Part shown: positions 3,413-37,126 of the stretch, piece after piece
Numbering within the stretch: position 1 is the stretch's first letter
Layout: each line of letters begins with the position of its first letter
Translations under genes and position numbers: made by a program
The notes under the pieces: model-generated
Seen by the model: the letters and a program-made list of their open reading frames with translations, nothing else
Told to the model about the DNA's origin: nothing
Databases searched by the model: none
From: Candidatus Pyrohabitans jungbluthii
Lineage (GTDB): Archaea > Hydrothermarchaeota > Hydrothermarchaeia > Hydrothermarchaeales > BMS3B
Assembly: GCA_002010065.2 (NCBI GenBank)
Contig: MTMD02000014.1
Span: 68,534 to 132,533, forward strand
Direction of reading: 5' to 3'
Length of the DNA stretch: 64,000 nucleotides

Positions 3413-3413
3413 A

Positions 3414-18246: not shown

Positions 18247-18298
18247 GTCCTACCACCTCAGTTTAAGTATAATTGTTGTACCAGACGTATATAAATTT

Positions 18299-18314
18299 AT
18301 CCTAGTGTTAGGAT
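18299..18314. promoter_or_regulatory. inverted repeat between divergent genes, likely operator
   Basis: ATCCTA-GTGT-TAGGAT, a perfect 6-base-arm dyad. It abuts the TTTATATAC TATA box of the minus-strand methyltransferase, where a bound protein would block TFB/TBP. The same 180-base gap holds a second imperfect dyad near 18376-18400 (TATGGGGATA...TATCCATA) closer to the plus-strand gene. The binding protein is unknown. Confidence 0.45.
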
Positions 18315-18427
18315 TTTTTTCAAATCTATGGATATAAATATGGACTGTTTTTAGATTAATTAGTAAAATTTAAATATGGGGATAAGCAAATATCCATACC
18401 GGAGGTGACTCCAGGAGGTAGCATTGG

Positions 18428-18844
18428 ATGGCAAATGAGTGTGAGGAATATGTAAAGGAGAAGATGAAGATAGTACCCAGGTTTTTGAAGCCAATCTGCC
18501 AGGTGCACCCCGAGGCTGCGAAGCGCTTCGCAGACTTCTATGAAACGATTTTCGGCGATGGCGCGCTGGACAGGAAGACAAAAGAGCTTATTTTTACTGC
18601 GATAGGCGTTGCCACGGCTTCACCTCGCTGCATAGTCCACGTTATCCCTGCGATTGAGGCTGGGGCAACAGACGAGGAGATTCTCGAGGCTGTGGCGGTG
18701 GGCTTCGTAGGTGCAGGATTCTATCCAAATAACCCCGGTATCCCCTACTGTTTCGAGTATGCCGCCAAGGTGCTCGAAATAGCGCAGAAGTACAGAAAGG
18801 GCGAGGACTGGGAGTACCTCAAGCCTCCAGAGTTCAGGGGCTAA
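18428..18844 (+). CDS. carboxymuconolactone decarboxylase-family protein, single Cys
   Basis: 138 residues with the AhpD/CMD helix pattern (DRKTKELIFTAIGVA, AIEAGATDEEILEAVAVG). The usual CxxC is reduced to SPRCIVHV, with one cysteine and the histidine. So it may not act as a disulfide reductase. A strong AGGAGGTAG ribosome site lies a few bases before the ATG. Divergent from the MtaA-type gene, and its end is convergent with the HdrD-like operon. Confidence 0.8.
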   Translation: MANECEEYVKEKMKIVPRFLKPICQVHPEAAKRFADFYETIFGDGALDRKTKELIFTAIGVATASPRCIVHVIPAIEAGATDEEILEAVAVGFVGAGFYPNNPGIPYCFEYAAKVLEIAQKYRKGEDWEYLKPPEFRG

Positions 18845-18849
18845 GCCCC

Positions 18850-19098
18850 TTATCTTTTCTTTTCCGGCAGCGTGTATTTTCCCTTTTTGAGATACTTTCT
18901 TACCACGTAGGGCATGTACCTGCACTCCCCACAGTGCTCGCCGAAGTCGTTTTCTCCAGGGCAGAGCTCACCTCCCATGTAGTTCAGCGTTACCTCTCCT
19001 TCGTGCACCTCCACCTTCTCCATGGGGTCGAGGAAGAAAGATTTGATAACCTCAAGGTCTTCTTCGCTCACCTCTAATAGTTTAACTCTGCACAGCAT
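18850..19098 (-). CDS. small cysteine-rich protein next to HdrD-like gene
   Basis: 82 residues from the ATG at 19098, which has GGAGGCGTGAG before it; the track start is inside the upstream gene. Cysteines occur as LCPGENDFGEHCGECRYM, suggesting a metal or Fe-S site, and the C-terminus is basic. I do not recognise a family. It starts 11 bases after the HdrD-like stop and is probably cotranslated, so it may be a small partner or electron carrier of that protein. Confidence 0.6.
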   Translation of the reverse strand: MLCRVKLLEVSEEDLEVIKSFFLDPMEKVEVHEGEVTLNYMGGELCPGENDFGEHCGECRYMPYVVRKYLKKGKYTLPEKKR

Positions 19099-19109
19099 AC
19101 TCACGCCTC

Positions 19110-20363
19110 CTAAAGAAAGCTTACCGCGTACTGGAGCACGTCGTTGCACTTAACGCCGCTCTTAAACGCGCGCCATTCTTTGCCGTAGGGCTCTGGAAGG
19201 CGCCTCGCCACGTACATCGCATAGCACGCGGGACAGTTCATGAGCAGCGTCTCAGCACCAGTGCGCTCTGCATCGCGTAAAAAGAGCTTGCCTATCTCCA
19301 GGGCAACCTCCGGCCTTGCTCCGCGTATTCCCCCGCCAGCGCCGCAGCACTTTGTCAGCCTTCCGTGGCGCTCAAGCTCGACCAGCTCCACCCCGGGCAG
19401 GTGTTGTATTACTGTGCGAGGCTCCTCGTATATGCGGGGTCCGCGAAAGCCTCGTGTAAGCTGACAGGGGTCGTGGTAGGTAACCTTTTCTTTTCTTTCT
19501 TTTGTAAACTTGAGCCTGCCATCCTCAACAGCTTCGGCTATTATCTGGGTAATGTGGAGCACCTCAAAGGGAAGCTTCCCTGCATAGCCTCGCCACACTT
19601 CGCGAATCTGCTGAAGGCAGCATGGGCAGCTCACTGCAAGCGTGGCTATGCCCTTCTCCTCGAGCTTGGCGATATTGTTCTCCACCAGCTCTTCCTGAAG
19701 CTCCCACATGCCAGCGACGGCGAGGGGCCAGCCGCAGCACCAGGCTTGAGAAGCTTCCAGAAGTGTGAATTCTATGCCTGCCGCATTGAGCAGGCGAACC
19801 GCTGCCTCTGCCATCGCAGGCGCATCCCAGGCGACGCCACACCCCTCGAAGTAGCAGAGCTCTGCGCTCTCGGCCACCTTCACCTCTGGCGGTAGCCAGA
19901 TTTTGTAGCGCAGCTCGAGAGGTGAGGGAAATATGCTGTGGTGCTTCCTTGCGTTTTCCAGCAGCTTGGGCAGCGTGCCTGGCGCGGAGTAGCCCATGCC
20001 CACAAGCTCTTTTCGCATAGCCCACCAGAGCTTCTGCGTGTCGATGCCCACCTCGCAGGTTTCGCCGCAGGCGCCGCAGGTGGTGCAGGCGTAGAGTGCG
20101 TCGAGGAAGCGGATAACCTCCTCCTCCGCAGGCTTTTTTGCTCCCAGAAGCTTCGCCCTTAAGCCGTGCACCGCCTCAATGAAGCCCTTATACTCGGCTA
20201 TCTTCGCGGGCGGCGAGATGTCGCGATTCTGCGTTGTCTCCTGAACAACGCACGCGTCGAAGCAAGCGCCGCAGCGCACACACGCTTCAAGCTCCAGCAT
20301 CTGCTTCCGGGTAAGCTGGGTGAGAAAATCTTTCTTAGGCAAAGCCCGTGCTTTCTCCAGCAT
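19110..20363 (-). CDS. HdrD-like protein (two 4Fe-4S plus two CCG domains)
   Basis: 417 residues. The N-terminal ferredoxin part has CVRCGACFDACV and CTTCGACGETCEV. Two cysteine-rich CCG domains follow (CYFEGCG, WCCGWPL, CPCC and HDPCQLTRG, KCCGAGGG, CPAC), the site where heterodisulfide reductase cleaves CoM-S-S-CoB at a special Fe-S cluster. The length fits HdrD; GlpC/LutA-like oxidoreductases share the fold. A likely b-type cytochrome partner (HdrE/NarI-like) is at 31.2 kb, so substrate and partner are inferred. Confidence 0.8.
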   Translation of the reverse strand: MLEKARALPKKDFLTQLTRKQMLELEACVRCGACFDACVVQETTQNRDISPPAKIAEYKGFIEAVHGLRAKLLGAKKPAEEEVIRFLDALYACTTCGACGETCEVGIDTQKLWWAMRKELVGMGYSAPGTLPKLLENARKHHSIFPSPLELRYKIWLPPEVKVAESAELCYFEGCGVAWDAPAMAEAAVRLLNAAGIEFTLLEASQAWCCGWPLAVAGMWELQEELVENNIAKLEEKGIATLAVSCPCCLQQIREVWRGYAGKLPFEVLHITQIIAEAVEDGRLKFTKERKEKVTYHDPCQLTRGFRGPRIYEEPRTVIQHLPGVELVELERHGRLTKCCGAGGGIRGARPEVALEIGKLFLRDAERTGAETLLMNCPACYAMYVARRLPEPYGKEWRAFKSGVKCNDVLQYAVSFL

Positions 20364-20522
20364 GGTATAATTTATACGGTTGTGATATAAAAAGATAAAC
20401 CGTGGTATTTATAAAGGGAAAACTAAACTGGGCTCCCTGGAAATCGAAGTTGTGGAATTTTCAGAAACAGAGAAGGTGGAATACTGGGAATGTGAAAAAT
20501 GCTTCGCTGGAGATTAAAAGCT

Positions 20523-20762
20523 TTAATTGAGCTTTTTAATCAGGTAGATAATCCTCTCTCCTTCGTCTCTCACCTCCAGCAGCTCATTTCCTGTTCTCTT
20601 CACGCACGCTGGGATGTCTGTTTTCGAGGCTTTATCTGTGGCTATTACCATCAGCACCTCTCCTGGGCGCATTTTCTTCAGCGCATTTCTTGCTTTAAGT
20701 ACAGGCTGCGGGCACACAGCGCCGCTAACATCCAGCACCACATCCGCCTTTACTTCAGCCAT
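20523..20762 (-). CDS. TusA-like sulfur carrier
   Basis: 79 residues from the ATG at 20762. The start VVLDVSGAVCPQPVLKARNAL contains the TusA CPxP motif whose cysteine carries persulfide sulfur. It lies 4 bases after the DsrE-like gene. Together they form a sulfur relay pair; targets could be tRNA thiolation, Fe-S or molybdopterin sulfur, or persulfide disposal. No tus or dsr reductase genes are in the window. Confidence 0.85.
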   Translation of the reverse strand: MAEVKADVVLDVSGAVCPQPVLKARNALKKMRPGEVLMVIATDKASKTDIPACVKRTGNELLEVRDEGERIIYLIKKLN

Positions 20763-20766
20763 AACA

Positions 20767-21135
20767 TCACCCCAGTGAGATAACATTATTTGCCTCAAGT
20801 GCCAGGTCTATGAGCGTCGCCGCCCCAGAAACCTTCGCTTCGTCGATAAGGTCTTCCTCCTTGATTCCCTTCACCTTCATTGTCTGCTCGCACACCAGTA
20901 TCTCTACGCCGGCTTCGATGGCTTCCTCTAGGCGCTGCTTTATCGTTGGTACGCCCGGCTTTGCCTCCTCTTTATCCAGGGCGCCCTTGACCATTATCTC
21001 AGCGCCCTCCTGAACGCAGAAGAGTATGGTCTCAACGTCCATTGCAGCGCTTATAGAAGCGAACATGAGCGTTGCGCGGGTAACGCCGGGTGAGTTGAAG
21101 CCCGTGGTTAAGACGAAGACCAGCTTGTCTCCCAT
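20767..21135 (-). CDS. DsrE-like sulfurtransferase subunit
   Basis: 122 residues from the ATG at 21135. The Rossmann-like DsrE fold is shown by KLVFVLTTGFNSPGVTRATL and a central cysteine in ILVCEQTMKVKGI, where family members hold a persulfide. It sits between the OsmC-like and TusA-like genes in the same operon, suggesting sulfur transfer to or from TusA. Confidence 0.8.
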   Translation of the reverse strand: MGDKLVFVLTTGFNSPGVTRATLMFASISAAMDVETILFCVQEGAEIMVKGALDKEEAKPGVPTIKQRLEEAIEAGVEILVCEQTMKVKGIKEEDLIDEAKVSGAATLIDLALEANNVISLG

Positions 21136-21167
21136 TGAAACCACCTGCAAAAAAGTAAAAAGGGGGT

Positions 21168-21701
21168 TTATACTGTGCGCCTGCTTTCCAGCGTTACCTC
21201 CACGTTGACAGGGTTGCGCAAGGTACTACCCACAGGCGAGGTTTTCACAACGTCTTCGTGAAGCTTCTGAAGCTCTTCCTTGCTCACAGGCGTCTTGGTC
21301 TTGAGGAACACCCTGGCGCGGACGTTGGTAAACCCTGGCCACACCTTCTCAGGCGGCTCAAGGGCAAGGAAGCCTGGAAGATCTATATCACCCTCAACTT
21401 CAACCTCAACCTTCGCAAGCTCTATTCCGCGAACAGCGGCGTTCATAACGTAGCCCACAATTAGGCAGGCGCCGAAGGCACCGAGAACGAACTCCACCAT
21501 GTTGGGCGCAGTGTTTGTGCCTCCTAGGTCAAGGGGCTCGTCCATTCTTATGGTGAAGTCCCTTATTCTCACCTCTTCCTTGAAGCCTCCCTTCCACTTG
21601 GCGCTGGCGCGCCACAGAGTCTTTCCGAGCTCAGGGTTTGCCTTTACTGTCTCCACCACCTTCTGGAGGTACTCCACATCCAGGCCGTTCACAACTTTCA
21701 T
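21168..21701 (-). CDS. OsmC-family protein
   Basis: 177 residues from the ATG at 21701, preceded by GAGGTGTTGAG. The OsmC core is shown by TNTAPNMVEFVLGAFGACLIVGY, containing one conserved cysteine, and a C-terminal TSPVGSTLRNPVNVEV where the second redox cysteine is absent. OsmC proteins act on organic peroxides or thiols; without the second cysteine this one may instead bind or transfer sulfur, in keeping with its DsrE and TusA neighbours. Confidence 0.8.
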   Translation of the reverse strand: MKVVNGLDVEYLQKVVETVKANPELGKTLWRASAKWKGGFKEEVRIRDFTIRMDEPLDLGGTNTAPNMVEFVLGAFGACLIVGYVMNAAVRGIELAKVEVEVEGDIDLPGFLALEPPEKVWPGFTNVRARVFLKTKTPVSKEELQKLHEDVVKTSPVGSTLRNPVNVEVTLESRRTV

Positions 21702-21774
21702 TCTCAACACCTCAGGTAAAAATGCGCTAACCAGATATGATAAAAAAAGTGGCAGAAAAAGGGTCAAAACATGG

Positions 21775-23331
21775 TTAGAATATAAGCCGCTTTCCCTTCT
21801 CACTCACGCTGAGGAACTTGTTCCTCCCCGCTCTTTCCTCCACAAGCAAACCTTTGCCAAGCAGGATTTTCACTCTCTTCCGTGCTGTGGTGCGGGTAAC
21901 GCCCAGCTTCCTGGTTACGTCCTTGTACGAGGGCTTTACTCCTTTAAGGTTTTGCTCATGAACAAAGCTAAGAAGGGCGTAAAGTTCTTCGGTGAGCTCC
22001 GCCTCCCCTTTAACTCCAACAGCCCTGGTCTCCTTCTCCAATAGGTTTGCCTCCCTCTCATCCAGCGTCGCAGGATCCACGGAAATCAGGATCACCGCCC
22101 TGCTCAGGTATGCTAAGTCACGAAGCTTCTGAAGCAGAGCAAGCGCCGAGCGGAAGCCCCATAGGGTTATCAGGTAATCAAACCTATCTACCAAGACGAC
22201 GCTTGTCCTTGTCACAAACTCCCGAATTCTGGTTTCTACAACCTCAGGCTCGGGCTTAATTGTGTCCTCTCCTTCGCCATACTCGCTGAGCCAGTAGCAG
22301 GCAACGCCTTCGCCAAAAATTCGCCTTGCCTCTGCCACTGGTAGCCTGGAAAGCACCATCCCCTTAAAGCCGCAGTTAATCATATCCCTGAGGATGCTCC
22401 TGCTCCTCTCATAGTTTTTCTCCTTCACAAGGTAGAGATTGCCCCTCTTTATGTCGTAGGAGAGCATCCTCTCCATCAGCTTCTCCTGCTCCCTCTTCAT
22501 ATCGGTTATATCCACGAGCACATAGAGGGTGCCTCCCGCACCGCGAAGCGGAGAGGCGCTGACAAGCAGGTGCACCTCTTTCCCCGACTTTTTCTTGAAG
22601 TTTATCTCATACCTGTCCTGGGAGTGTCTCTCCAGCCCCGGAAGCACGAAATCGGCGCGCTTTCCAACAACCTCATCCCTTTTGTAACCAGTAAGCCTTT
22701 CAAACACAGGATTAACAAAGGTTATAAAGCCCTCTGCATCCACTATCACAACGCCTTCTTCCATAGATTGAATTATGTTCTCGTTGAACCTCTTGAGTTC
22801 CTCCATTTTTTTGAAGAGTCTTGAGTTTCTAATAGCTATAGCAGCATGACTGGCGAAAATCGTGAGCAGCTTTAAATCTTTGTCTGTAAAACCACCTCCA
22901 CCAGCCTTGCCGAAGGCAGCAAGCCCGCCGATTATCTTTCCCTTAAAAACAAGCGGCACAACTATGGCTTCGTTTACATTCAGCTTTTTCACCAGCTCCC
23001 TGTTAATCCTGTTGTCGCTCCACAGCGAATTGGTTAGTATCGGCTTGCGATGCTTCACAACCCAGGCGCAAAGCCCGCCTTCGCTCATCGGCAGACTCAT
23101 ACCCTTCAGCAGATCTCTGTTCTTCCCCGCCGCCTCCTCGTAGGTTATGGTTGAGCGGTCCTCGCTGATAACTGGAATTGCCACGGTCTCGGCATTGATG
23201 AGCATCCTCGCCTTCTCTGTTATAAGCCGGAAAACCTCCCGCGTATCCAACTCACTCAAAATAGCCATGCACACTTCCTGAAGGGCGACAAGCTCGAGGT
23301 CACCCTCCACTCTATCAATCATCTGAATCAT
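21775..23331 (-). CDS. GAF-PAS-DUF835 sensor with C-terminal winged helix
   Basis: 518 residues: GAF domain (about 15-175, with LCAWVVKHRKPILTN), PAS domain (about 185-290, GVVIVDAEGFITFVNPVFERLTGY), DUF835 (about 295-435) and a winged helix (about 450-518, YKDVTRKLGVTRTTARKRVK). So it is a one-piece intracellular signal sensor and DNA-binding regulator. There is no histidine kinase part. Its start overlaps the stop of the MtaA-type gene by 4 bases. It likely controls the methyltransferase and sulfur genes of this operon; the ligand is unknown. Confidence 0.85.
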   Translation of the reverse strand: MIQMIDRVEGDLELVALQEVCMAILSELDTREVFRLITEKARMLINAETVAIPVISEDRSTITYEEAAGKNRDLLKGMSLPMSEGGLCAWVVKHRKPILTNSLWSDNRINRELVKKLNVNEAIVVPLVFKGKIIGGLAAFGKAGGGGFTDKDLKLLTIFASHAAIAIRNSRLFKKMEELKRFNENIIQSMEEGVVIVDAEGFITFVNPVFERLTGYKRDEVVGKRADFVLPGLERHSQDRYEINFKKKSGKEVHLLVSASPLRGAGGTLYVLVDITDMKREQEKLMERMLSYDIKRGNLYLVKEKNYERSRSILRDMINCGFKGMVLSRLPVAEARRIFGEGVACYWLSEYGEGEDTIKPEPEVVETRIREFVTRTSVVLVDRFDYLITLWGFRSALALLQKLRDLAYLSRAVILISVDPATLDEREANLLEKETRAVGVKGEAELTEELYALLSFVHEQNLKGVKPSYKDVTRKLGVTRTTARKRVKILLGKGLLVEERAGRNKFLSVSEKGKRLIF

Positions 23332-24335
23332 GAGCCCAAACTCTTCACAGTCTCAACCATGGCGCGAAGGTTCCTATTTGGCGTTAGCGGCGAGATGGCG
23401 CACCCCGGGGCGATTATGTCTATACCCGCCTCTATAGCTCGCTTCGTCTCGGCAATCACCTCCTCGGGGGTGCCAAAGGCTAGGGCGTAGACAGTGTCGA
23501 TGTTGCCCATAATAGACGCCTTACCTCTGGATACCTCCACAGCATGCCTGGCGTCGGTCTTGGAATCTATGCTCAGGCAGGTGGCGCCGGTTTCTATCAT
23601 CTTATCTATAATCTTCGTGCCATCGCCGCAGATGTGGAGAATCGTCGGGCCTTTAATCTTTCGTATAAGCTCACGGTCGAAGGGCTGGGCAAAGTTAACA
23701 TAACCCTTGACACCCATAATATCCACAGAGGCAAACATGTTCTCTATTACAATTGCATCCGCGCCGTGCTCCAGCATGGCGTTGGCATACTCTGCTATCG
23801 CCTCAAGGCCAAGGTTTGTGAACTCCTTGACAATCACCGGGTTCTTTATGGACATCTTCAGAATCTTCTCCATGTTCGCAAGGTGGGCTGCGAGGGAGAA
23901 GGGGCCTATTACGTGTCCCATTATTGGCACCTCATCTCCGTACTCCTCCTTGAGAATCTCTATCGCTTCCAGCACCACCGGAATCCTTCCCCGCTCCAGA
24001 AAGTTCTCCGGCACCTCAACACCCTCTGGTGTTGAATAGCCTTTGAAGGGCGCCTCTGGGATGTCTGTCTTTCTCTTGCCCCACTTCACCTCAAGCCCGA
24101 AAATCTCAGCTTCTACCGTCTGGCAAAATGGGACGCCTATGCCTTCCAGACCAACCTGCTCCCAGGCAGCGGCAGCTAGTTTTGCCATCTTGCGTGCGTC
24201 GCGGTAGGCGTCTGGGAAGTATATTCCCAGCTTGTCCATCTGTTCTATGGTTGCTGTCTGGTTTGGAGAAGTCACAGGCGGGCGGTCAACCTTTTTAAGA
24301 TGCAGGGCCTTGAGGAATCTTTCCCTCGGTGTCAT
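23328..24335 (-). CDS. UroD/MtaA-type corrinoid methyltransferase (copy 2)
   Basis: 335 residues with the MtaA/MtbA zinc site: HICGDGTKII (HxC) and the later cysteine in APGCAISP. The start MTPRERFLKALHLKKVDRPP is typical. It is placed between an Lrp regulator and the GAF-PAS-DUF835 regulator, with close spacing to both, so it is under dedicated control. Substrate thiol and cognate corrinoid are not known. Confidence 0.85.
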   Translation of the reverse strand: MTPRERFLKALHLKKVDRPPVTSPNQTATIEQMDKLGIYFPDAYRDARKMAKLAAAAWEQVGLEGIGVPFCQTVEAEIFGLEVKWGKRKTDIPEAPFKGYSTPEGVEVPENFLERGRIPVVLEAIEILKEEYGDEVPIMGHVIGPFSLAAHLANMEKILKMSIKNPVIVKEFTNLGLEAIAEYANAMLEHGADAIVIENMFASVDIMGVKGYVNFAQPFDRELIRKIKGPTILHICGDGTKIIDKMIETGATCLSIDSKTDARHAVEVSRGKASIMGNIDTVYALAFGTPEEVIAETKRAIEAGIDIIAPGCAISPLTPNRNLRAMVETVKSLGS

Positions 24336-24347
24336 GTCAATCCTCCA

Positions 24348-24845
24348 CTACTCGCAGAACAGTTTCTTAAGAACATCATCACTGTAGTTCACAAGCAGCC
24401 TTTTCTCCTCCTTAATAGTGGAAGCCACGAAGTGGGTGCCTGTCTTAACCACCCCGTCTATGGCGTGCATCTCGCGGAGGATTCTCTTCAAATCTTCCCT
24501 GTCTTTAGCTTTGGCAATGACGATGAAGTCAAAGTCGCCAAGCACATAATAAACAGTAAAAACGCCTGAGATGGAAGCGAGTTTCTCCCCTATCTCCTCT
24601 GCAGTGGTGTTCTCATAACTGACGTTCACAAAGGTGACGGCGGTCATGTCCAGACCCAAAACCTGGGGGTCAAGCTCAACAAAGGTGCCCTTAATAAGTC
24701 CCATCTTCTCAAACTTCTTCAGCCTGTAGTGCACCGTCGAGCGGCTTATGCTTGTGCGCTTTGATATCTCATCGAGGTTGCAGCTTCCATCCTCGTCGAT
24801 GCATCTGAGTATTTTAATATCCTTCTCTTCAAGCTTTACGGACAT
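24348..24845 (-). CDS. Lrp/AsnC-family regulator
   Basis: 165 residues: an N-terminal winged helix (LRCIDEDGSCNLDEISKRTSISRSTVHYRLKKFEKMGLI) and a C-terminal RAM ligand domain (DFDFIVIAKAKDREDLKRIL). It is the first gene of a minus-strand set with the MtaA-type enzyme and the GAF-PAS regulator. An amino acid or methylated compound is a likely ligand by family, but this cannot be read here. Confidence 0.92.
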   Translation of the reverse strand: MSVKLEEKDIKILRCIDEDGSCNLDEISKRTSISRSTVHYRLKKFEKMGLIKGTFVELDPQVLGLDMTAVTFVNVSYENTTAEEIGEKLASISGVFTVYYVLGDFDFIVIAKAKDREDLKRILREMHAIDGVVKTGTHFVASTIKEEKRLLVNYSDDVLKKLFCE

Positions 24846-24870
24846 GATGTTTTATTGTTTTTTGTATTAC

Positions 24871-24880
24871 TATATATAAA
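24871..24880 (-). promoter_or_regulatory. TATA box of the Lrp gene
   Basis: On the minus strand TTTATATATA lies about 25 bases before the ATG at 24845, with no ribosome site between. This suggests a leaderless transcript starting the Lrp-MtaA-GAF/PAS-OsmC-DsrE-TusA operon. Confidence 0.55.
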
Positions 24881-24910
24881 ATTAATGCAGAAGTTGGATA
24901 TTTTTCAAAG

Positions 24911-25090
24911 TCACTCCTGGCGCTCGTCTCCTACCTTCATTCTGAGCACTCCCCAGTCCACCAGGAGCTTGGCTGCAGCATAGGTGTCCTCTGGCGAAAG
25001 GTTGAGCTCAGAGGCAAGCTCACACAGGTTTATGCTCTTCCGTTGGTGCATCGCCCTGAGTATCATCTTTACGGCGATGTCCTTTTGCAT
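24911..25090 (-). CDS. small winged-helix protein
   Basis: 59 residues from the ATG at 25090; the track start adds hydrophobic residues from the promoter. The sequence (IAVKMILRAMHQRKSINLCELASELNLSPEDTYAAAK) is a single helix-turn-helix. A TATA box, TATATATATC on the minus strand, lies about 21-30 bases before the ATG, so the message is leaderless. It is divergent from the FrhB-like gene and likely regulates it or itself. Confidence 0.7.
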   Translation of the reverse strand: MQKDIAVKMILRAMHQRKSINLCELASELNLSPEDTYAAAKLLVDWGVLRMKVGDERQE

Positions 25091-25177
25091 GATATACAAT
25101 ACTGATTTCAGATATATATACTTTATCCAAATAAGTAGCGAAATATTTAAATATAATCCAAACAATATGGGTACGTG
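25091..25177. promoter_or_regulatory. divergent promoter region
   Basis: Holds a minus-strand TATA box (25111-25120) for the small regulator and a plus-strand TATA-like ATTTAAATAT (25144-25153) about 25 bases before the FrhB-like ATG. The two core promoters are only about 25 bases apart, so one bound repressor could shut both. Confidence 0.55.
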
Positions 25178-26488
25178 ATGAAAAGACGCCTGCTCACACT
25201 GATAGGCGGTATAGGTGTAGACGAAGACAGATGCATAGGGTGCGGAAACTGCGAGGCTGTGTGCCCAGGCAACTATGAACTCCTCTGCAGGGGTATAGAG
25301 GGGAGAGGCACTCTTGTGGTGAGGAATGGTGTCGCGAGTTTTGTCTCAGCCGAGTGCTGCCGCAGGGACATACCCGAGAGCGCCTGCAGGCAGTGCTACG
25401 ACGCCTGCCCAATGCGTGCGGTAATTTATCCTGATAGTGAGGGATTCCAGAGACTGGAAGCTGAGATTATAAACGCTGGAAAATGCACCGGCTGCGGTGC
25501 ATGCGCTGCTGTCTGCCCGGATAAAATTATAGAGATAAATGAATATCCTATACTCAGAGGCGAGTGCATAAACTGCGGCTTTTGCCTAGTTCACTGCCCA
25601 TCAATGCGGAGAGCGTCCACCAAGGGAGAGATCTCGCTCATAGACGAACCTCTTGGGGAGTACAGGAAGCTGGTGGCTGCAAGGGCTAGTGCAGCAAGAA
25701 TCGCCAGCGTAGCTCAGGATGGCGGAATTGTTACTGCGCTTCTCACCTATGCGCTGAGGAAGGGCATAATAGATGCTGCAGTAGTTGCGGTGAATAGTTC
25801 GCAGCCCTGGAAGCCTGTGCCACTGATAGCCTCAACTGAGGAGGAGATAATCGCTGGGGCAGGAACCAAATATACAAACTCTCCAACACTTGCGGCACTG
25901 AAAAAGGCCCGTGAAAGTGGTTTTAAAAAGCTCGGGATTGTGACGCTTCCCTGCCAGAGCAGAGCACTTCAACGACTTGAAACTTCAGAACTTGGTAGGG
26001 AGCTTATGGACATTGTTGCCCTTAACATAAGCCTCTTCTGCAAGGCTAACCTCCACTACGCCGGGATACTTGAACTCTCACAAAAGTATGGATTCTCCCT
26101 CAATGAAGTGAAGAAGTTTGCAATCAAGGGCAAAAGTCTCTACGTGACAACGCCAGCTGGGGTTGTGGATATCCCACTTAAAGAAGCTCTGAGGTACTGC
26201 AGACCCGCATGCAAGTGCTGCGCTGACTTTACGTCGGTGCATGCGGATATCTCAGTTGGCGCGGTGGGCTCACCCAAAGAGTTCTCCACGGTAATTATCA
26301 GAACCAGGAAAGCTGAGGAAATATTTGAAAACATGGTAAAAGAGGGTATAATTGAGGTTAAAGAGGTTAATGATAAGGGTTTCAGCCTTTTGATGAAGCT
26401 TGCGGCTCAGAAAAGCAAAAATACTCAAAATCTCAGTGAGCCTGGAAAGGTGGTTGCAATGATGCGAGCAGGTGGTGGTGGCCATTAG
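25178..26488 (+). CDS. FrhB/FpoF-like F420-reducing flavoprotein with ferredoxin domains
   Basis: 436 residues. The N-terminal 160 contain several 4Fe-4S motifs (CIGCGNCEAVCPG, CRQCYDACP, CTGCGACAAVCP, CINCGFCLVHCP). The rest is the FrhB/FdhB fold (QDGGIVTALLTYAL, GAGTKYTNSP, VTLPCQSRAL) that binds FAD and reduces F420. It probably couples ferredoxin or Hdr electrons to F420. The first ATG of the leaderless transcript is at 25178; the track GTG is one codon upstream. It lies just before the methyl-transfer operon. Confidence 0.82.
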   Translation: MKRRLLTLIGGIGVDEDRCIGCGNCEAVCPGNYELLCRGIEGRGTLVVRNGVASFVSAECCRRDIPESACRQCYDACPMRAVIYPDSEGFQRLEAEIINAGKCTGCGACAAVCPDKIIEINEYPILRGECINCGFCLVHCPSMRRASTKGEISLIDEPLGEYRKLVAARASAARIASVAQDGGIVTALLTYALRKGIIDAAVVAVNSSQPWKPVPLIASTEEEIIAGAGTKYTNSPTLAALKKARESGFKKLGIVTLPCQSRALQRLETSELGRELMDIVALNISLFCKANLHYAGILELSQKYGFSLNEVKKFAIKGKSLYVTTPAGVVDIPLKEALRYCRPACKCCADFTSVHADISVGAVGSPKEFSTVIIRTRKAEEIFENMVKEGIIEVKEVNDKGFSLLMKLAAQKSKNTQNLSEPGKVVAMMRAGGGGH

Positions 26489-26557
26489 GAAAAAATCTAA
26501 GTATTTCTGTGAATTATTGAAAATTGTATTGCTTACCAAAGAAAAATTTAAATATTG

Positions 26558-26573
26558 TATCAGGTATATGATA
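26558..26573. promoter_or_regulatory. dyad in the leader of the methyl-transfer operon
   Basis: TATCA-GGTATA-TGATA between the AT-rich TATA-like block AAATTTAAATATT (about 26544-26556) and the ATG at 26588. Possibly an operator; the short arms make this weak. Confidence 0.3.
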
Positions 26574-26587
26574 AGTGGGGTAGCAAC

Positions 26588-27607
26588 ATGACGCCGAAAG
26601 AGAGAGTGATGAACACACTGGAAAAGAAGGAAGTTGACCGCGTGCCAGTGTTCAGCGGAATGGGCAACGTCACCGTGGCTGGGATGCAGAAGTACGGCAT
26701 CGACTTTGCCTCGTCGCATGCGAATGCTGAGCAGATGGCAACGCTCGCGTGCTCTACCTACGAGCTTTTTGGATTTGAGTGTGCTGTCGTACCCTTCGAC
26801 CTGTGCGTGGAAGCAGAGGCGCTGGGCTGCGAAGTGAACTTCTACGCTGGCAAGCAGAACATACTCTATCCTACAATAAAGTCGAAGATTCTCAAGGTAG
26901 GTGAGGAGCTTCAGGTGCCTGAGAACCTGCTTGAGCGGGGCAGGATACCTCTGGTAAAGGAGGCAATCTCGCTTTGCAAGGAGAAGCTCAACGGCGAGGT
27001 GGCGGTTGGAAGCTATATTCTCGGGCCATTTACACTTGCGGGGCAGATCCTCGACCTGAACGACCTCCTCAAGAGTTCATTTAAAAAGCCGAATGATGTC
27101 AAAGCTCTGCTGAGCCAGCTGGTTGAGCCGCTGGTTGATATAGCCAATGCATTCCACGAGGCTGGCGCTGACTATATAACAGTGCGCGAGATGGGAGCAC
27201 CCAGCGACGTTATCTCGCCGCGCATGTTCAAGATGCTGGTGCAGCCATATCTCAAGGAAACCATCGCCGGCATAAAGGCGCCGACTATTCTGCACATGTG
27301 CGGCGACACCAACATGCTGGTGGAGATGCTCTATGAGTGCGGTGCAAATGCGATAAGCGTGGAGCAGAAGAACGACGTCGCTGCTACACGCCAGAAGCTT
27401 GGCGAGGAGGCGGTGATTCTGGGCAATCTGGATGCATATGGTGTCATAGTTAAGGGCACACCTGAGGAGGTGGAGCAGTCGGTTAAGCAGGCGATCGAAG
27501 CGGGCGTCGACGGTGTAATGCCAGGATGCGACATCTGGCCCGAGGTGCCCGAGGATAACATGCATGCGCTCATAAAAGCTGTGGAAAAATACGGCGCAAA
27601 AAGCTGA
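26588..27607 (+). CDS. UroD/MtaA-type corrinoid methyltransferase (copy 3)
   Basis: 339 residues from the ATG at 26588, which has GTGGGG upstream; the track start lies upstream of a TATA-like region. The zinc motif HMCGDTNML (HxC) and MPGCDIWP complete an H-x-C-xn-C site. It heads the operon with a corrinoid protein, its activator, an MtrH-like methyltransferase and a cytochrome. It either passes methyl to or from a thiol such as coenzyme M, or is the demethylase for an unknown methyl donor. Confidence 0.85.
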   Translation: MTPKERVMNTLEKKEVDRVPVFSGMGNVTVAGMQKYGIDFASSHANAEQMATLACSTYELFGFECAVVPFDLCVEAEALGCEVNFYAGKQNILYPTIKSKILKVGEELQVPENLLERGRIPLVKEAISLCKEKLNGEVAVGSYILGPFTLAGQILDLNDLLKSSFKKPNDVKALLSQLVEPLVDIANAFHEAGADYITVREMGAPSDVISPRMFKMLVQPYLKETIAGIKAPTILHMCGDTNMLVEMLYECGANAISVEQKNDVAATRQKLGEEAVILGNLDAYGVIVKGTPEEVEQSVKQAIEAGVDGVMPGCDIWPEVPEDNMHALIKAVEKYGAKS

Positions 27608-27619
27608 GAGGTGAGGAAG

Positions 27620-28297
27620 ATGACCGAGGACAAGAAGCAGCTTCTGGAAGAGATAAGGAAGGCAGTTATAGAATTCGACGAAGACCGCGTGAAGGAGCTT
27701 GCCAACAAGTGGATTGAGCTGGGCTATGATGCCAACGAGGCAATTTTTGAGGGCTTGGCCGCGGGCATGGAGGTTGTGGGCGATCTATTCGCAAAGAACG
27801 AGTACTTCGTGCCCGAGGTGCTCATGTGCGCCGATGCGCTCTACGCAGGCCTCGACATTCTGCGCCCCCACATAAAGGCGGAGGATAAGACGGAAACTAA
27901 AGGCGTGGTGGTAATAGGCACCGTGGAGGGCGACGTGCACGACATAGGTAAGAACCTGGTGAAGCTCATGTTCGAGGTTGCAGGCTTTGAGGTGCACGAC
28001 CTCGGCAAAGACGTACCCCTGGAGAAGTTCGTTGAGGAGCAGCTAAAGACAGACGCAGACCTCGTGTGCCTCTCAGCGATGATGACTACCACAATGCCAG
28101 GGATGAAGAAAGTTATTGAGATGCTTCGCGAGCGCAACCCGAATGTTAAGATCATGATTGGCGGTGCCCCAGTGTCGGAGAAGACAGTGGAGATGTACGG
28201 TGCCGACGCCACGGGCAAGGACGCTGCAAGCGCCCTTGAAGAGGCTATAAAGATGGTTGCCTCGCTTAGAGAGATGAAGAGGAAGAAGGAGATCTGA
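27620..28297 (+). CDS. corrinoid protein (MtaC/MtbC/MtoC-like)
   Basis: 225 residues from the ATG at 27620, preceded by GAGGTGAGGAAG. The N-terminal helical cap (DANEAIFEGLAAGMEVVGDLF) is followed by the B12-binding domain with the lower axial histidine in EGDVHDIGKNL (DxHxxG) and later SAMMTTTMPGMK and IMIGGAPVS. It carries the methyl group on cobalamin between the methyltransferases on either side. Confidence 0.95.
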   Translation: MTEDKKQLLEEIRKAVIEFDEDRVKELANKWIELGYDANEAIFEGLAAGMEVVGDLFAKNEYFVPEVLMCADALYAGLDILRPHIKAEDKTETKGVVVIGTVEGDVHDIGKNLVKLMFEVAGFEVHDLGKDVPLEKFVEEQLKTDADLVCLSAMMTTTMPGMKKVIEMLRERNPNVKIMIGGAPVSEKTVEMYGADATGKDAASALEEAIKMVASLREMKRKKEI

Positions 28298-28306
28298 GGT
28301 GCTGTG

Positions 28307-30244
28307 ATGAAGTACAAGGTGATCTTCCAGCCCTCGGGGCGCAGAGGGGAAATAGAGGAGGGCAAGACCCTCCGTGAGGCTGCGATTGAGCTGGGTGTGG
28401 GCATAGAGCAGGTGTGCGGCGGCAACAAGGTTTGCGGAAAGTGCAAGGTTCAGATTCAGGAAGGCTACTTTGCAAAGTTCGATGTCCACTCCAGCATGAA
28501 CAACCTCTCGCCCATAGGCAAGGAAGAGCTCAGGCTTCTTAATGAAGAGGAGGTTAAGAACAACTATCGCCTAGCCTGTGCTGCCCGCGTGCAGGGCGAT
28601 GTGCTTGTGTTTGTGCCTGAGGAGAGCCGTGTTGGCGGGCAGATTGTGAGGAAGGCAGCGGGCGAGATAAACATTGAGCTCGACCCTGCAGTGCGGAAGT
28701 ACTACGTCGAGCTACCTCCTCCCACCCTGGAGGACCCTGAGGGAGACTATGAGCGCCTGATGCGCGCCCTCAAGGAGCAGCACGGTCTCGAGGGCTTGAG
28801 CATGGACTACCATGCTCTTAGGGCTCTGCCGTTGGCGCTGAGAGAGGGCAAGTGGAAGGTCACCGTAACAGTGTGGAACGATCGAGAGATAATAGGCGTG
28901 GAGCCGGGCTATAACGACCGCACCCTGGGCATAGCCTTCGACGTGGGAACGACGACGGTGGTGGGCTACCTCACCGACATTAACACCGGCAAGGTTATCG
29001 CCATAGACTCCATGATGAATCCGCAGGTAAGCTTCGGCGAAGACGTGATGGCGCGCATCACCTATGCTATGGAGCACGAAGATGGGCTGCAGAAGATGCA
29101 TGAGGCAATCATCGGAGGGATAAACAAGATCATCTCAAACCTGTGCAATAAGGCTCAAGTTGGAGTGGAGGAAATTTCAGAGATAGTGCTCGTGGGCAAC
29201 ACTGCAATGCACCACATATACCTGAACATCTACCCGGAGTACCTCGGCGTATCACCCTTTACGCCCGCGGTGCACCGCAGCCTAGACATAAAGGCGAGGG
29301 ACCTCAACATCAAGGCGGCGCCCGGCGCTAATGTGCACGTCCTGCCAATAGAGGCAGGCTTCGTAGGCGCCGACAACATGGGTGTGGTTGTAGCCCTTGA
29401 GCCCGAGAAGAAGGACGACATCTGGCTCATCATAGACATAGGCACCAACGGCGAGATAGTGCTGGGCAACAAGGACAAACTGCTCTCGACTAGCTGCGCT
29501 ACAGGTCCAGCGTTTGAGGGTGCGCAGATTACGCACGGCATGAGAGCAGCGCCCGGAGCGATAGAGCGCGTGCGCATTGACCCGGAGACAAAGGAGCCCC
29601 GCTACAAGGTCATAGGCAAGGAAGAGTGGAGCGACGAAGTTAAGAGCGAGGCTCGCGGAATATGCGGCTCGGGTATAATAGAAGTAGTGGCAGAGATGTT
29701 CAAGGCTGGCATTATAAAGAACAGCGGCGTCTTCAATACCAAGCTCGACACCCCGCGTATACGCAAAGGCGAAAACGGCCAGCCAGAGTATGTGCTCGCC
29801 TGGGCGGATGAGACTGCGATAGGCAAGGACATAACCGTTACCCAGAGCGACGTGCGCGCGGTTCAGTTAGCGAAGGGCGCACTGTACACCGGCTGCAAGA
29901 TTCTCATGAAGCGCTATGGCATAGATGCTGTGGACAAGGTGATTCTCGCTGGAGCCTTCGGAAGCTACATAGATAAAGAAGCCAGCATGGTCATAGGCAT
30001 GTTCCCGGACTGCGATCTGGACAAGGTTGTAGCCGTGGGCAACGCCGCCGGCGATGGCGCGCGTATAGCGCTGCTCAACCGTAGGAAGCGCGAGGAGGCT
30101 AACGCCGTAGCGAGGCGCATAAAGTACATTGAGCTTACAGTGGACCCCGACTTCCAGACGGAGTTCATGCAGGCGATGTACTTCCCACACATGAAGGACA
30201 AGTTCCCCCACATCCAGCACATCCTTGATAAGATACCCAAGTAG
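28307..30244 (+). CDS. RACo-type corrinoid reductive activator
   Basis: 645 residues from the ATG at 28307. The N-terminal 2Fe-2S ferredoxin has CGGNKVCGKCKV and a downstream cysteine; the long C-terminal ASKHA ATPase (DUF4445) part has AFDVGTTTVVGYL, VGNTAMHH, IDIGTNGEIVLG and LAGAFGSYID. Such proteins use ATP to reduce inactive Co(II) corrinoid to Co(I). Its place directly after the corrinoid gene fits that job. The same type is called MtoD in O-demethylation operons. Confidence 0.92.
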   Translation: MKYKVIFQPSGRRGEIEEGKTLREAAIELGVGIEQVCGGNKVCGKCKVQIQEGYFAKFDVHSSMNNLSPIGKEELRLLNEEEVKNNYRLACAARVQGDVLVFVPEESRVGGQIVRKAAGEINIELDPAVRKYYVELPPPTLEDPEGDYERLMRALKEQHGLEGLSMDYHALRALPLALREGKWKVTVTVWNDREIIGVEPGYNDRTLGIAFDVGTTTVVGYLTDINTGKVIAIDSMMNPQVSFGEDVMARITYAMEHEDGLQKMHEAIIGGINKIISNLCNKAQVGVEEISEIVLVGNTAMHHIYLNIYPEYLGVSPFTPAVHRSLDIKARDLNIKAAPGANVHVLPIEAGFVGADNMGVVVALEPEKKDDIWLIIDIGTNGEIVLGNKDKLLSTSCATGPAFEGAQITHGMRAAPGAIERVRIDPETKEPRYKVIGKEEWSDEVKSEARGICGSGIIEVVAEMFKAGIIKNSGVFNTKLDTPRIRKGENGQPEYVLAWADETAIGKDITVTQSDVRAVQLAKGALYTGCKILMKRYGIDAVDKVILAGAFGSYIDKEASMVIGMFPDCDLDKVVAVGNAAGDGARIALLNRRKREEANAVARRIKYIELTVDPDFQTEFMQAMYFPHMKDKFPHIQHILDKIPK

Positions 30245-30253
30245 GTGAGTAAA

Positions 30254-31237
30254 GTGTTCAGCCTGAATAATAAGAATCAGAAGGTCGTGAAGATAGGGAA
30301 TGTGAAGTTCGGCGGGCGCCCTGGGGAGAATCCCACAGTGCTCATCGGCACAATGTTCTACAACGGTCACAAAATCCTCGGCTCCCGCAAAAAGGGCGAG
30401 TTCGACAAGAAGCGAGCTGAAGAGCTAATAAACCGCCAGGAGGAGCTGAGCGACGCCACAGGCGTGCCCTGCATGCTTGACATAGTTGCCACATTTGGCG
30501 AAGAGGCAAAGCGCTACATCGACTTCGTGGCAGAGGTTACAGACATGCCCTTCTCCACAGATATATGGACAGAGCAGCCCAAGGTGGAGGCGGCGCAGTA
30601 CATCGCTGAGGTAGGGCTTCAGGATCGCCACCTGTACAACAGCCTTGCACCATGGGCGAAAGACCCAGAGTATGAGGTAAACGAGCTGAGCAAGCTTGGT
30701 TTGAAGAATGTTCTGCTCGTTGCCTTCAACATGCAGAACCCCACGCCCCAGGGCAGGGTGGAGCTTGTCAAGGATGTTCTGCTCCCGCGGGCAGAGAAAG
30801 CTGGATTCAAGAATATCCTGGTAGACACATCGCTTATGAGTATCCCCTCCTCTCCCTTCTCCTTTTTGGGAAGCAGGCTGGTCAAGGAGGAGCTGGGCTT
30901 TCCAGTGGGCTGCGCTCCCTCGAACGGCACAGACTTGGTTAAGAAGGACGCAGAGGCTAAGTGGGGCAAGCTCGGCTTCGTGGGCATAGACAGCGCTGCC
31001 CATGCGCTGGGCGCAGTCTTCTGGAGCGACTTCCTGCTCTATGGCCCAATAGAGAGCGCCCCATGGATATTCCCAGCCATAGCCAACGCCAATGCGATGC
31101 TGGCAACCTTCGTCTACGACGAAATCGGCGAGCTTCCAGCGAGCGAGAACCATCCGATATACAAGTTCTACCAAGACTTCGTGAATGAGCTCAAAGCTGG
31201 CAAGGCTTCGCTCAAGGAAATGGAGGCGGAAGGATAG
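30254..31237 (+). CDS. MtrH-like methyltransferase (methyl-H4MPT forming)
   Basis: About 327 residues. I start at the GTG at 30254 because AGGTGAG lies just before it; the track GTG at 30245 has none. The sequence is close to MtrH, the subunit that moves methyl between tetrahydromethanopterin and a corrinoid (KIGNVKFGGRPGENPTVLIG, LDIVATFGEEAKRYIDF). Other mtr genes are absent from the window, so it is a stand-alone methyltransferase like MtoA. It gives the link from methyl corrinoid to the H4MPT C1 pathway. Confidence 0.9.
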   Translation: MFSLNNKNQKVVKIGNVKFGGRPGENPTVLIGTMFYNGHKILGSRKKGEFDKKRAEELINRQEELSDATGVPCMLDIVATFGEEAKRYIDFVAEVTDMPFSTDIWTEQPKVEAAQYIAEVGLQDRHLYNSLAPWAKDPEYEVNELSKLGLKNVLLVAFNMQNPTPQGRVELVKDVLLPRAEKAGFKNILVDTSLMSIPSSPFSFLGSRLVKEELGFPVGCAPSNGTDLVKKDAEAKWGKLGFVGIDSAAHALGAVFWSDFLLYGPIESAPWIFPAIANANAMLATFVYDEIGELPASENHPIYKFYQDFVNELKAGKASLKEMEAEG

Positions 31238-31244
31238 CTTAGCC

Positions 31245-31994
31245 ATGGAGTACATGGTGATTCCCCCTGCCCTGAAAACACATTTTTATTTTATTGCCCT
31301 TATTTTGTCTTTTGTTTTTTTGACGGGGGTTGGCTTCAAGATAATGCTTATATCCAGCACTCGAGACACAACTGGCAGGCTCTCTATCTTTAGGATCGCT
31401 TGGATGAGCCTCACTTCCCTTTTCTCCCCAGAATGCCTTCTCGCCAGGCGGGTTTTTCCAAGGAGCTGGCTTCGCGGCGCAATGCTCGTGCTCATAATAT
31501 GGAGCTTTCTGCTAATCATAGCCGGCGGTGTGCTGAGCTATTCTTCTCGCTTGGTCGGGGTCCCGCTCCGCTCCACCTATCACCTCCTCAGCCTTTCCGT
31601 TGACACCGCCGGCTTTCTTCTTCTATTAGGCGTGCTCTACGCCATCGCAAGGCGATATTTGCTCGCAAGGGAAGAAGTGTTCACCATGCCAGAGGACGGC
31701 GTCTTCCTCGGCTTATTTCTTCTTATCCTGCTCTCCGGCTTTGCTGTTGAAGGTGCGAGGCTGGCGATAACATCTGCCAGCGACGCGTACTCGCCTTTTG
31801 GAAGCCTCGTGGCGGAGCTGCTCTCCCCAGCAACCTTAGAAATGCAGGGGAAGGTATTCGTCTACGCCAAGCTTTTGCACTTCACCGCAGCCTTTGCCCT
31901 TCTCGCATATATCCCCTTCTCAAAGGCGATGCACATGTTTGCAGCGCAAATCACCACACGCTTTGCAAAAGAAAAAGAGAGGCTGTATTATTAA
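31245..31994 (+). CDS. HdrE/NarI-like cytochrome b membrane subunit
   Basis: 249 residues from the ATG at 31245. About five transmembrane helices, for example FYFIALILSFVFLTGVGF and VLIIWSFLLIIAGGVL, with histidines in STYHLLSLSVD and KLLHFTAAF that could ligate heme b. Length and layout match HdrE/HmeC/NarI-type subunits that connect a quinone or phenazine pool to a cytoplasmic Fe-S protein. It follows the MtrH-like gene by 7 bases. The best HdrD-type partner in the window is 11 kb away. Confidence 0.75.
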   Translation: MEYMVIPPALKTHFYFIALILSFVFLTGVGFKIMLISSTRDTTGRLSIFRIAWMSLTSLFSPECLLARRVFPRSWLRGAMLVLIIWSFLLIIAGGVLSYSSRLVGVPLRSTYHLLSLSVDTAGFLLLLGVLYAIARRYLLAREEVFTMPEDGVFLGLFLLILLSGFAVEGARLAITSASDAYSPFGSLVAELLSPATLEMQGKVFVYAKLLHFTAAFALLAYIPFSKAMHMFAAQITTRFAKEKERLYY

Positions 31995-32309
31995 TCACCT
32001 CTCAAACTCCATCCTCACCGCCTTGGGCGTCGCTGCACCAGTTTCAATCTCCACGGCGCGAATAACTGCCGCCGGTACAGGGCAGCCGGGATGTAGCCTC
32101 GCACGAGTAGCCGCCTGGTAAATTGCCGAGTCGCACATGCCGACGAGAACTTCCTTCGTCCAGTCGAGGCTCTTAACATCCTCTGCAAACGTTTTAACCT
32201 TCTCGCACCCCGAGGTTATGCGTATCTCCACTCTCTTTCCGTGCCTCTCAACGCTTATGCGGGTTACAAACTTACAGGAACCGGCGTCTACCTCTGCTCG
32301 CGTCGTCAT
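31995..32309 (-). CDS. conserved cysteine-containing protein of unknown function
   Basis: 104 residues with spaced cysteines (GSCKF, SGCEK, GMCDS, PGCPVP), suggesting a metal-binding role; I do not recognise a named family with certainty. The ATG lies 1 base after the CobW stop and the ribosome site GGAGGT is in the end of cobW, so the two are coupled. It may be a client or accessory of the metallochaperone. It is convergent with the cytochrome gene. Confidence 0.65.
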   Translation of the reverse strand: MTTRAEVDAGSCKFVTRISVERHGKRVEIRITSGCEKVKTFAEDVKSLDWTKEVLVGMCDSAIYQAATRARLHPGCPVPAAVIRAVEIETGAATPKAVRMEFER

Positions 32310-35911: not shown

Positions 35912-37126
35912 TCACCCGTTGATGACCTTCTCCAGCGCCTCTATACTTGGCTCTATCTCAATGGGCTTCTCGTAACGATGGAAGATTATCTCCGGGTCTT
36001 TGAGCGCATGCCCTGTGGTCACGCAAACAATGCGCTCGCTTCTGTCTATTTCGCCTGCTTCCACAAGTTTCTTTAGCCCGGCGACGCTGGCAGCACTCGC
36101 GGGTTCAACGCCAACGCCAAGCTTGCGCGCCAGTAACTTCTGTGCTTCGATTATCTCCTCGTCAGTAACGCTCTCCGCAATTCCACGACTCTCCTTCAGG
36201 GCGAGAAGCGCCTTAGGCGCATTCACGGGTGCGCCTATTCTTATCGCCGTGGCGATTGTCTCAGGCTTGGGCTCAGGGGTGACGCTGCTTTCACCAGCTT
36301 TGAAAGCTCTGACGAGAGGTGAAGCTCCTTCAGCTTGAATACCAGTCATCACGGGCAGTTCATCTATAAGCCCAAGCTCATGGAACTCCTTGAAACCCTT
36401 CCATATCGCCGAGATGTTTCCGCAGTTGCCCACGGGTACGACTACTCGATCGGGAGCCTCGAAACCGAGCTGGTCGGCGATCTCAAAAGCTTCGCTCTTC
36501 TGCCCCTCTAAGCGCCACGGATTTATAGAGTTGAGCAGGTAGATATTGTGCTTTGCGCATATCTCACGTACCAGCTTGAGTGCGACGTCGAAATTGGCTT
36601 TAATTCCCACAACGATGGCGCCATGCAGCAGCGCCTGGGCGAGCTTTCCTATGGCGATTTTTCCCGCTGGAAGAAGTACAAGGCATTTAATGCCTGCCTT
36701 TGCTGCATAGGCTGCTAGCGATGCTGAGGTGTTGCCCGTGGAAGCGCAGCCAACCGCCGTTGCCCCAAGCTCCAGTGCCTTGGTAACGCCAACTGTCATC
36801 CCGCGGTCCTTAAATGAGCCCGTGGGATTGGCACCCTCGTTCTTTATATAAAGCTCCTTGACTCCAATCTCCTCAGCGATGGTATCGGCTCTGTACAGGG
36901 GGGTTCCACCCTCATTGAGACTAACCACCCTCGTGTAATCCTCCACAGGCATCAGCTCGCGGTACCGCCACAGGTTGAAAGCACGGCTTTCAATCTCAGC
37001 TTTTGTTACTGAAATCTCGCTCAGGTCGAAAACGACCTCGAGCAGCCCCGAGCAGCGAGGGCACTGGTATATGACCTCTCTGCGGTCGTAAACCTCTCCG
37101 CATGCGATGCATCTAAGATGGAACAT
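35912..37126 (-). CDS. thrC: threonine synthase
   Basis: 404 residues. The N-terminal zinc ribbon (CIACGEVY, CPRCSG) is followed by the PLP lysine in NPTGSFKDRGM and the PLP-phosphate loop VGNCGNISA. It converts O-phosphohomoserine to threonine. It overlaps the preceding membrane protein gene by one base and precedes apgM. Confidence 0.93.
   Translation of the reverse strand: MFHLRCIACGEVYDRREVIYQCPRCSGLLEVVFDLSEISVTKAEIESRAFNLWRYRELMPVEDYTRVVSLNEGGTPLYRADTIAEEIGVKELYIKNEGANPTGSFKDRGMTVGVTKALELGATAVGCASTGNTSASLAAYAAKAGIKCLVLLPAGKIAIGKLAQALLHGAIVVGIKANFDVALKLVREICAKHNIYLLNSINPWRLEGQKSEAFEIADQLGFEAPDRVVVPVGNCGNISAIWKGFKEFHELGLIDELPVMTGIQAEGASPLVRAFKAGESSVTPEPKPETIATAIRIGAPVNAPKALLALKESRGIAESVTDEEIIEAQKLLARKLGVGVEPASAASVAGLKKLVEAGEIDRSERIVCVTTGHALKDPEIIFHRYEKPIEIEPSIEALEKVING

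Follow-up and report, generated by a model that had tools for sequence, protein, structure and literature searches.

A conserved corrinoid methyltransferase module, with a possible role between thiols and the tetrahydromethanopterin pool, in Hydrothermarchaeota and Archaeoglobales

A stretch of 64,000 nucleotides from the thermophilic deep-subsurface archaeon Candidatus Pyrohabitans jungbluthii (Hydrothermarchaeota; contig MTMD02000014.1, positions 68,534 to 132,533 of the forward strand), referred to here as the window, was analyzed for a corrinoid methyltransferase operon and its surroundings. The source was a metagenome-assembled genome of 1.99 Mb in 15 contigs that was 99.95% complete. Five genes were located at 26588-31994, all on the plus strand. 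The first-pass annotation had read them as an MtaA-like enzyme, a corrinoid protein, an activator, an MtrH-like protein and a cytochrome, and all five were found by Pfam in that order and place. The first gene (26588-27607) encoded MtaA1, a UroD-family zinc methyltransferase resembling the soluble coenzyme M (CoM) methyltransferases (URO-D, 1e-76). It was followed by a corrinoid protein with a DxHxxG motif, the putative methyl carrier (27611-28297; B12-binding, 5e-29, and B12-binding_2, 9e-23). The third gene encoded a RACo-type ATP-dependent corrinoid reductive activase with a 2Fe-2S domain (28304-30244; RACo_C_ter, 1e-105, with Raco_middle, RACo_linker and Fer2). The fourth encoded a stand-alone MtrH, presumed to be a methyl-corrinoid:tetrahydromethanopterin (H4MPT) methyltransferase (30245-31237; 2e-67, 228 bits against a gathering score of 22.8), which was 96% identical to the MtrH of JdFR-17. 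The last gene encoded a NarI/HdrE/EtfD-like membrane protein of about five predicted helices (31242-31994; Nitrate_red_gam, 5e-8; the protein model matched EtfD and NarI). Since the genes were separated by only 3, 6, 0 and 4 nucleotides, they very probably formed one transcript.

The operon was the core of a larger module at 17230-32309, so that the interval first annotated enclosed the operon itself but less than half of the module. On the minus strand, divergent from the operon, lay an Lrp/AsnC-type regulator (24348-24845), found in the same place in relatives at 65-96% identity. It was followed by a second enzyme resembling CoM methyltransferases, MtaA2 (23328-24335), and a GAF/PAS/DUF835 sensor-regulator (21775-23331). 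Next came an OsmC-like protein (21168-21803, a shorter downstream start being likely; 79-96% identity within the module of relatives), a DsrE-like sulfur-relay protein conserved in the module (20767-21150) and a TusA-like sulfurtransferase (20523-20798). The strand continued with an HdrD-like iron-sulfur protein with two CCG motifs (19110-20363; Pfam CCG, 2e-31), a small cysteine-containing protein downstream of it (18850-19149) and UroD3, a third and more distant UroD-family methyltransferase and a candidate substrate enzyme (17230-18246; 73-74% identity in Archaeoglobales). A CMD/AhpD-family gene (18428-18844; 61-88% identity in the module of relatives) lay among them on the plus strand. At the 3' side of the operon, a DUF6951 gene (31995-32309, minus strand) preceded a CobW-like gene. 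A FrhB-like F420-binding iron-sulfur protein (25175-26488, plus strand; FrhB_FdhB N- and C-terminal domains) was encoded 99 nucleotides upstream of MtaA1 in Pyrohabitans only, being kept in the congeners.

Congeners retained the gene order at identities of 64-99% and more distant relatives mostly at 56-75%, and the operon was therefore not a chance assembly. The MtaA1-corrinoid protein-RACo-MtrH core, or at least its RACo-MtrH end, was kept in all eight Hydrothermarchaeota loci with contigs reaching it, and the divergent Lrp and MtaA2 genes lay beside it in four of those loci extending that far. One branch of the Archaeoglobales shared CMD, UroD3, OsmC, DsrE, MtaA2, Lrp, MtaA1, the corrinoid protein, RACo and MtrH. 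Four congeners carried the module genes, as did the closed genome of an isolate, the cultured iron-reducer Ferroglobus placidus (2,196,266 bp; PMC3236036). In the latter, an ABC transporter was encoded after MtrH; its binding protein came closest to those for aliphatic sulfonates, with a score under the family cut-off. The search of plasmid records returned only matches of 22-29% identity, and hence no close plasmid-borne relative.

A paralogous operon in locus L063 had the order UroD-corrinoid protein-MtrH-MtaA-like, placing MtrH and an MtaA-like enzyme again on one corrinoid protein, as a soluble replacement of the Mtr complex would require. The source genome carried a second pair of UroD and corrinoid protein genes, with HdrD-like genes nearby and no MtrH of its own (L065; G000:C2:294799-296473). 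A variant operon, L159 (genome G442), combined a more distant MtrH (39%) with an MtaA1 orthologue (61%); that genome gave no match to the CoM synthesis genes ComDE.

The active site of the three UroD-family enzymes was then compared with characterized families by alignment. The first-pass annotation had pointed to an H-x-C-xn-C thiol site in the first enzyme. The site was indeed present and fell on the zinc-ligand columns of MtaA, but it was not unique, as His-Cys-Cys occupied the columns of MtaA H237, C239 and C316 in MtaA1, MtaA2 and UroD3 alike. The same triad occurred in MtaA/MtbA and mlp-type enzymes, and Leu-Glu-Gly was found there in MtoB. Kountz and Balskus (PMC10418091) link the His-Cys-Cys triad to S- and Se-methyltransferases and a replaced Cys to O-demethylases. 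MtaA1 and MtaA2 also retained Gly119-Arg120 of MtaA and further positions invariant in MtaA/MtbA, which UroD3 and MtoB did not. Both MtaA1 (298 bits) and MtaA2 (365 bits) matched PRK06252, the cut-off of which is 244.

A tree of 48 UroD-family proteins was built, its mlp references being chosen by gene context rather than from named Mlp sequences. MtaA1, MtaA2 and UroD3 formed three separate, well-supported clades (MtaA1 and UroD3 each at 100/100), and MtoB fell outside at 100/100. MtaA1 and MtaA2 were placed in a larger clade of soluble CoM methyltransferases at 88/91, which also contained mlp-type proteins. Grouping MtaA1 with MtoB cost 89 log units and was rejected by the approximately unbiased (AU) test with p = 3.5e-9. 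Outside the UroD family, the corrinoid protein and MtrH each formed a module-only clade (support of 99 for the former), that of MtrH lying apart from MtoA and from the MtrH of Mtr complexes. The phylogeny against MtoB, MtaA and MtbA, proposed in the first-pass annotation, separated MtaA1 from MtoB and gave it a clade of its own within the larger clade that holds both soluble CoM methyltransferases and mlp-type proteins. The likeness to the mto set noted there held for the parts list but not for kinship with MtoB, which was rejected by the tree, the AU test and the ligands. The His-Cys-Cys site and the rejected MtoB kinship supported a thiol-type rather than an O-demethylase chemistry for MtaA1.

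The synthesis of CoM was searched for in the source genome. Cysteate synthase (548 bits against a cut-off of 324.9) was encoded in one operon on contig C8 with a sulfopyruvate decarboxylase whose alpha (191, cut-off 148) and beta (224, cut-off 221.5) parts were fused. These two enzymes are the Methanosarcina-type route to CoM, and the source genome appeared able to make it. A threonine synthase-like gene of the window (35912-37126) was considered as a cysteate synthase and rejected, scoring 377 bits for thrC against 90 for cysteate synthase. The beta part was matched at similar scores in each of the five Pyrohabitans genomes searched, as well as in Ferroglobus, H. profundi, G016 and several further carriers of the module. 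In every locus read, the decarboxylase had the cysteate synthase next to it. In F. placidus, two of the three scores fell a little short of their cut-offs. No beta part was found in A. fulgidus or in G005, a family member without the module. ComA gave no match in any of the 25 genomes searched, the source included. This absence was uninformative, since the Methanosarcinaceae reference also lacked ComA (the names Methanosarcinaceae, Methanococcus and Geoglobus are our own assignments of these genomes). The third gene of the CoM operon (L185:8333-9241, with orthologues in L187, L188, L190, L191 and L192) encoded a sulfonate-binding (SsuA/NMT1) fold with no obvious signal peptide. It may be a sulfonate enzyme or sensor, perhaps replacing a step of CoM synthesis.

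The module and the CoM genes were associated both by distribution and by neighborhood. Among 57 Archaeoglobales genomes, ComDE was present in 7 of the 10 with a module MtrH and in 3 of the 47 others (Fisher p = 4.6e-5; the count ignores kinship between genomes and includes one fragmentary MtrH match). Next to the CoM operon of H. profundi, some 20 kb away from the methyl module, stood three consecutive orthologues of window genes, those of the cytochrome (36%), HdrD (52%) and the small protein (56%). The CoM operon of G016 (L192) was adjoined by orthologues of DUF6951 (42%) and CMD (67%).

No match to McrA was obtained in the source genome, nor was one to MtrA (PF04208), for which the control was detected, and MtrH gave a single match. 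Neither a complete mtr operon nor a close kinship to MtoB, which the first-pass annotation had named together as the result that would refute its reading, was found. No methylamine or betaine enzyme of the MTTB type was found there either; MtaB, MtmB and MtbB lay outside the search. Because MtrA and McrA were missing and MtrH was single, a methyl transfer independent of Mtr was supported by these gene contents. The Mtr complex (MtrA-H) would connect CoM, a corrinoid and H4MPT, and the MtrH family is common to it and the module. The module differed from it in having no MtrA match, in being soluble with no sodium pump and in carrying an MtrH outside the clade of the complex. In two genomes of family members without the module, an MtrA domain was present within an open frame of 375 amino acids (G005:C84:7437-7907 and G007:C67:9087-9551).

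The membrane protein at the end of the operon was examined separately. Its helix-5 histidine pair was conserved at a spacing of 18 residues, as in NarI. The helix-2 heme histidines were absent from every NarI-like sequence compared. HdrE and NarI have been described with two hemes and with ligands in helices 2 and 5 (PMC9478090). The predicted structure was of medium confidence (a pLDDT of 70) and supported only a NarI/EtfD-type fold. Heme binding is uncertain, and "NarI-like membrane partner of HdrD" describes the protein best. The gene belonged to the Pyrohabitans version of the operon and was absent from the core operon of H. profundi and Ferroglobus. For HdrD, the best NCBIfam model was TfrB of thiol:fumarate reductase (160 bits, below the cut-off). 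The HdrD and NarI-like genes were adjacent in L037 and in H. profundi (L187), where the 56% identical small protein followed HdrD, and were both present but apart in the window. From this synteny in other genomes, the two proteins probably form an HdrDE-type unit. Such a pair of a CCG protein and a NarI-like membrane partner resembles the HdrDE, DsrMK and EtfD-type units, which differ from it in that here the helix-2 heme histidines were missing and the genes were split. The earlier suggestion that the cytochrome ties the operon to membrane electron flow rested on the HdrD synteny in other genomes, and it was weakened by the missing helix-2 ligands and by the restriction of the gene to the Pyrohabitans operon. 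Futalosine-type menaquinone genes were found at 43042-46097 of the window, a VitK2_biosynth protein being flanked by two radical SAM CofH/MqnC-like proteins.

RACo proteins keep corrinoid proteins as Co(I), MtrH serves H4MPT, and the zinc enzymes of the UroD family move methyl groups between sulfur and cobalt. Based on these functions, we proposed, with a little more confidence than doubt, that a soluble corrinoid module connects thiols with the one-carbon units of the H4MPT pool in archaea that have neither methyl-CoM reductase (Mcr) nor the Mtr complex. RACo would keep the cobalt of the corrinoid protein as Co(I), while MtaA1, MtaA2 and UroD3, judged by their family and site, would each bind the sulfur of a thiol or methyl-thioether through zinc and pass the methyl group between this sulfur and cobalt. 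MtrH would exchange the methyl group between cobalt and H4MPT. The corrinoid protein, MtaA and MtrH would thereby do the chemistry of MtrA, MtrE and MtrH with no sodium pump. CoM is the most likely thiol of the exchange; at least one of MtaA1 and MtaA2 most likely uses it, and UroD3 or the other MtaA-like enzyme may serve a methylated substrate. HdrD and the NarI-like protein may transfer electrons to or from a disulfide, with the quinone pool as the other partner, and DsrE, TusA, OsmC and CMD probably handle sulfur or an oxidized thiol. The likelier net direction would be uptake, with methylated sulfur compounds supplying methyl groups to the Wood-Ljungdahl pathway. The first-pass annotation had suggested either the use of methylated thiols or a transfer between CoM and H4MPT without Mtr. 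The site supported the thiol-type chemistry, the missing MtrA and McrA supported a transfer independent of Mtr, and the CoM synthesis genes strengthened the link to CoM.

Among the nearest known systems are the soluble MtaA/MtbA enzymes of methylotrophic methanogens with their partners MtaC/MtbC. MtaA1 and MtaA2 shared with them the UroD fold, the His-Cys-Cys zinc site, a corrinoid partner and many invariant positions. The differences were a host without Mcr and Mtr, scores below the equivalog cut-offs and an MtrH in the same operon.

Several observations weighed against the proposed role. The MtaA equivalog cut-off of 400 was missed by MtaA1 (286) and MtaA2 (333), as was the MtbA cut-off of 600 (202 and 279, respectively). 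The grouping of MtaA1 with MtaA alone was disfavored (AU p = 0.0055), branch support was weak within the MtaA part of the tree, and the mlp S- and Se-methyltransferases, which have no known use of CoM, occupied the same part. The final CoM synthase (marker 16, TIGR03287) lay outside the search. Three module-bearing Archaeoglobales, one of them 99% complete, had no ComDE, and three Geoglobus-like genomes had ComDE without the module. Finally, we know of no use for methyl-CoM where Mcr is absent.

A wider proposal was held more tentatively, at somewhat below even confidence. According to it, archaea without Mcr and Mtr, including F. placidus, would run a full CoM economy, in which CoM is made, exchanges methyl groups with H4MPT by soluble enzymes and is coupled as thiol and disulfide to the membrane. 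Methyl-CoM would then be an intermediate in sulfur metabolism or in methylotrophy without methanogenesis.

The strongest alternative, though an unlikely one, was a salvage of methyl-sulfur or methyl-selenium compounds without CoM, in the manner of mlp systems. The UroD enzymes would demethylate methanethiol, dimethylsulfide, methylthio compounds or methylselenols, MtrH would feed H4MPT, and the CoM genes would serve elsewhere. The type 1 mlp clusters (PMC10418091), including the methanococcal dimethylselenide system, have the same parts, namely several His-Cys-Cys UroD enzymes (three here), one corrinoid protein and a bacterial-type activase, with sulfur genes nearby. The presence of TusA, DsrE, OsmC and CMD within the module and the loose coupling between the module and the CoM genes were also consistent with salvage. 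However, the mlp-type references formed clades distinct from all three module enzymes, and the described type 1 clusters have no tetrahydrofolate methylase, whereas the module has MtrH. The orthologues of HdrD, the cytochrome, CMD and DUF6951 that adjoined CoM genes likewise argued for a link to CoM synthesis.

We gave little credence to the possibility that CoM is the low-molecular-weight thiol of the cell and that the module repairs it. MtaA would demethylate accidentally S-methylated CoM and return the methyl group to H4MPT, HdrD and its membrane partner would reduce the CoM disulfide, and OsmC and CMD/AhpD would remove peroxides. Such a role would suit the OsmC, CMD, DsrE, TusA and HdrD genes surrounding the operon and the occurrence of ComDE without the module in Geoglobus-like genomes. 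According to one report (PMC12713407), CoM over-production shields methanogens from oxidative stress. On the other hand, three methyltransferases, a dedicated activase and MtrH suggest a metabolic flux rather than repair, and a redox function of the module genes had no direct support.

A diverged O-demethylase system of the Mto type, acting on methoxylated aromatics as in Methermicoccus and Archaeoglobus (PMC8630106, PMC8359953), was highly improbable despite the identical four-part list of UroD-family enzyme, corrinoid protein, activase and MtrH, because MtaA1 did not group with MtoB, the His-Cys-Cys ligands were absent from MtoB, and the corrinoid protein and MtrH, as all tested module parts, belonged to other clades. 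In addition, a genome which we take, from the position of its mto genes, to be that of A. fulgidus carried a separate mto cluster, whose UroD enzyme was about 25% identical to that of the module and whose other common parts were 38-42% identical.

CoM in archaea is regarded as a cofactor of methane and alkane metabolism. The proposed transfer between thiols and H4MPT bears on the origin of such genes, which may be left over from a methanogenesis that was lost or may put the same chemistry to a separate use. Hydrothermarchaeota were reported to have mtrH without mcr by Carr et al. 2019 (PMC6775978), who considered that methyl-CoM may have another fate there. The module is a concrete candidate for that fate, being conserved in two archaeal lineages and tied to CoM synthesis by neighborhood and distribution. 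A later study of such remnants names Hydrothermarchaeota, and the available parts of its main text describe neither the module nor CoM synthesis there. No published description of the module was found in the literature covered, which mostly excluded subscription journals. The module is testable, since a cultured member, F. placidus, has a closed genome.

Elsewhere in the window, a Type I restriction-modification locus was located at 2648-13251, with HEPN, Schlafen/AlbA_2 and an unknown membrane gene in between. Its HsdS (7440-9203) seemed to hold a PIN-like insert between the two specificity halves (a PIN score of 21.6 bits, slightly below the cut-off).

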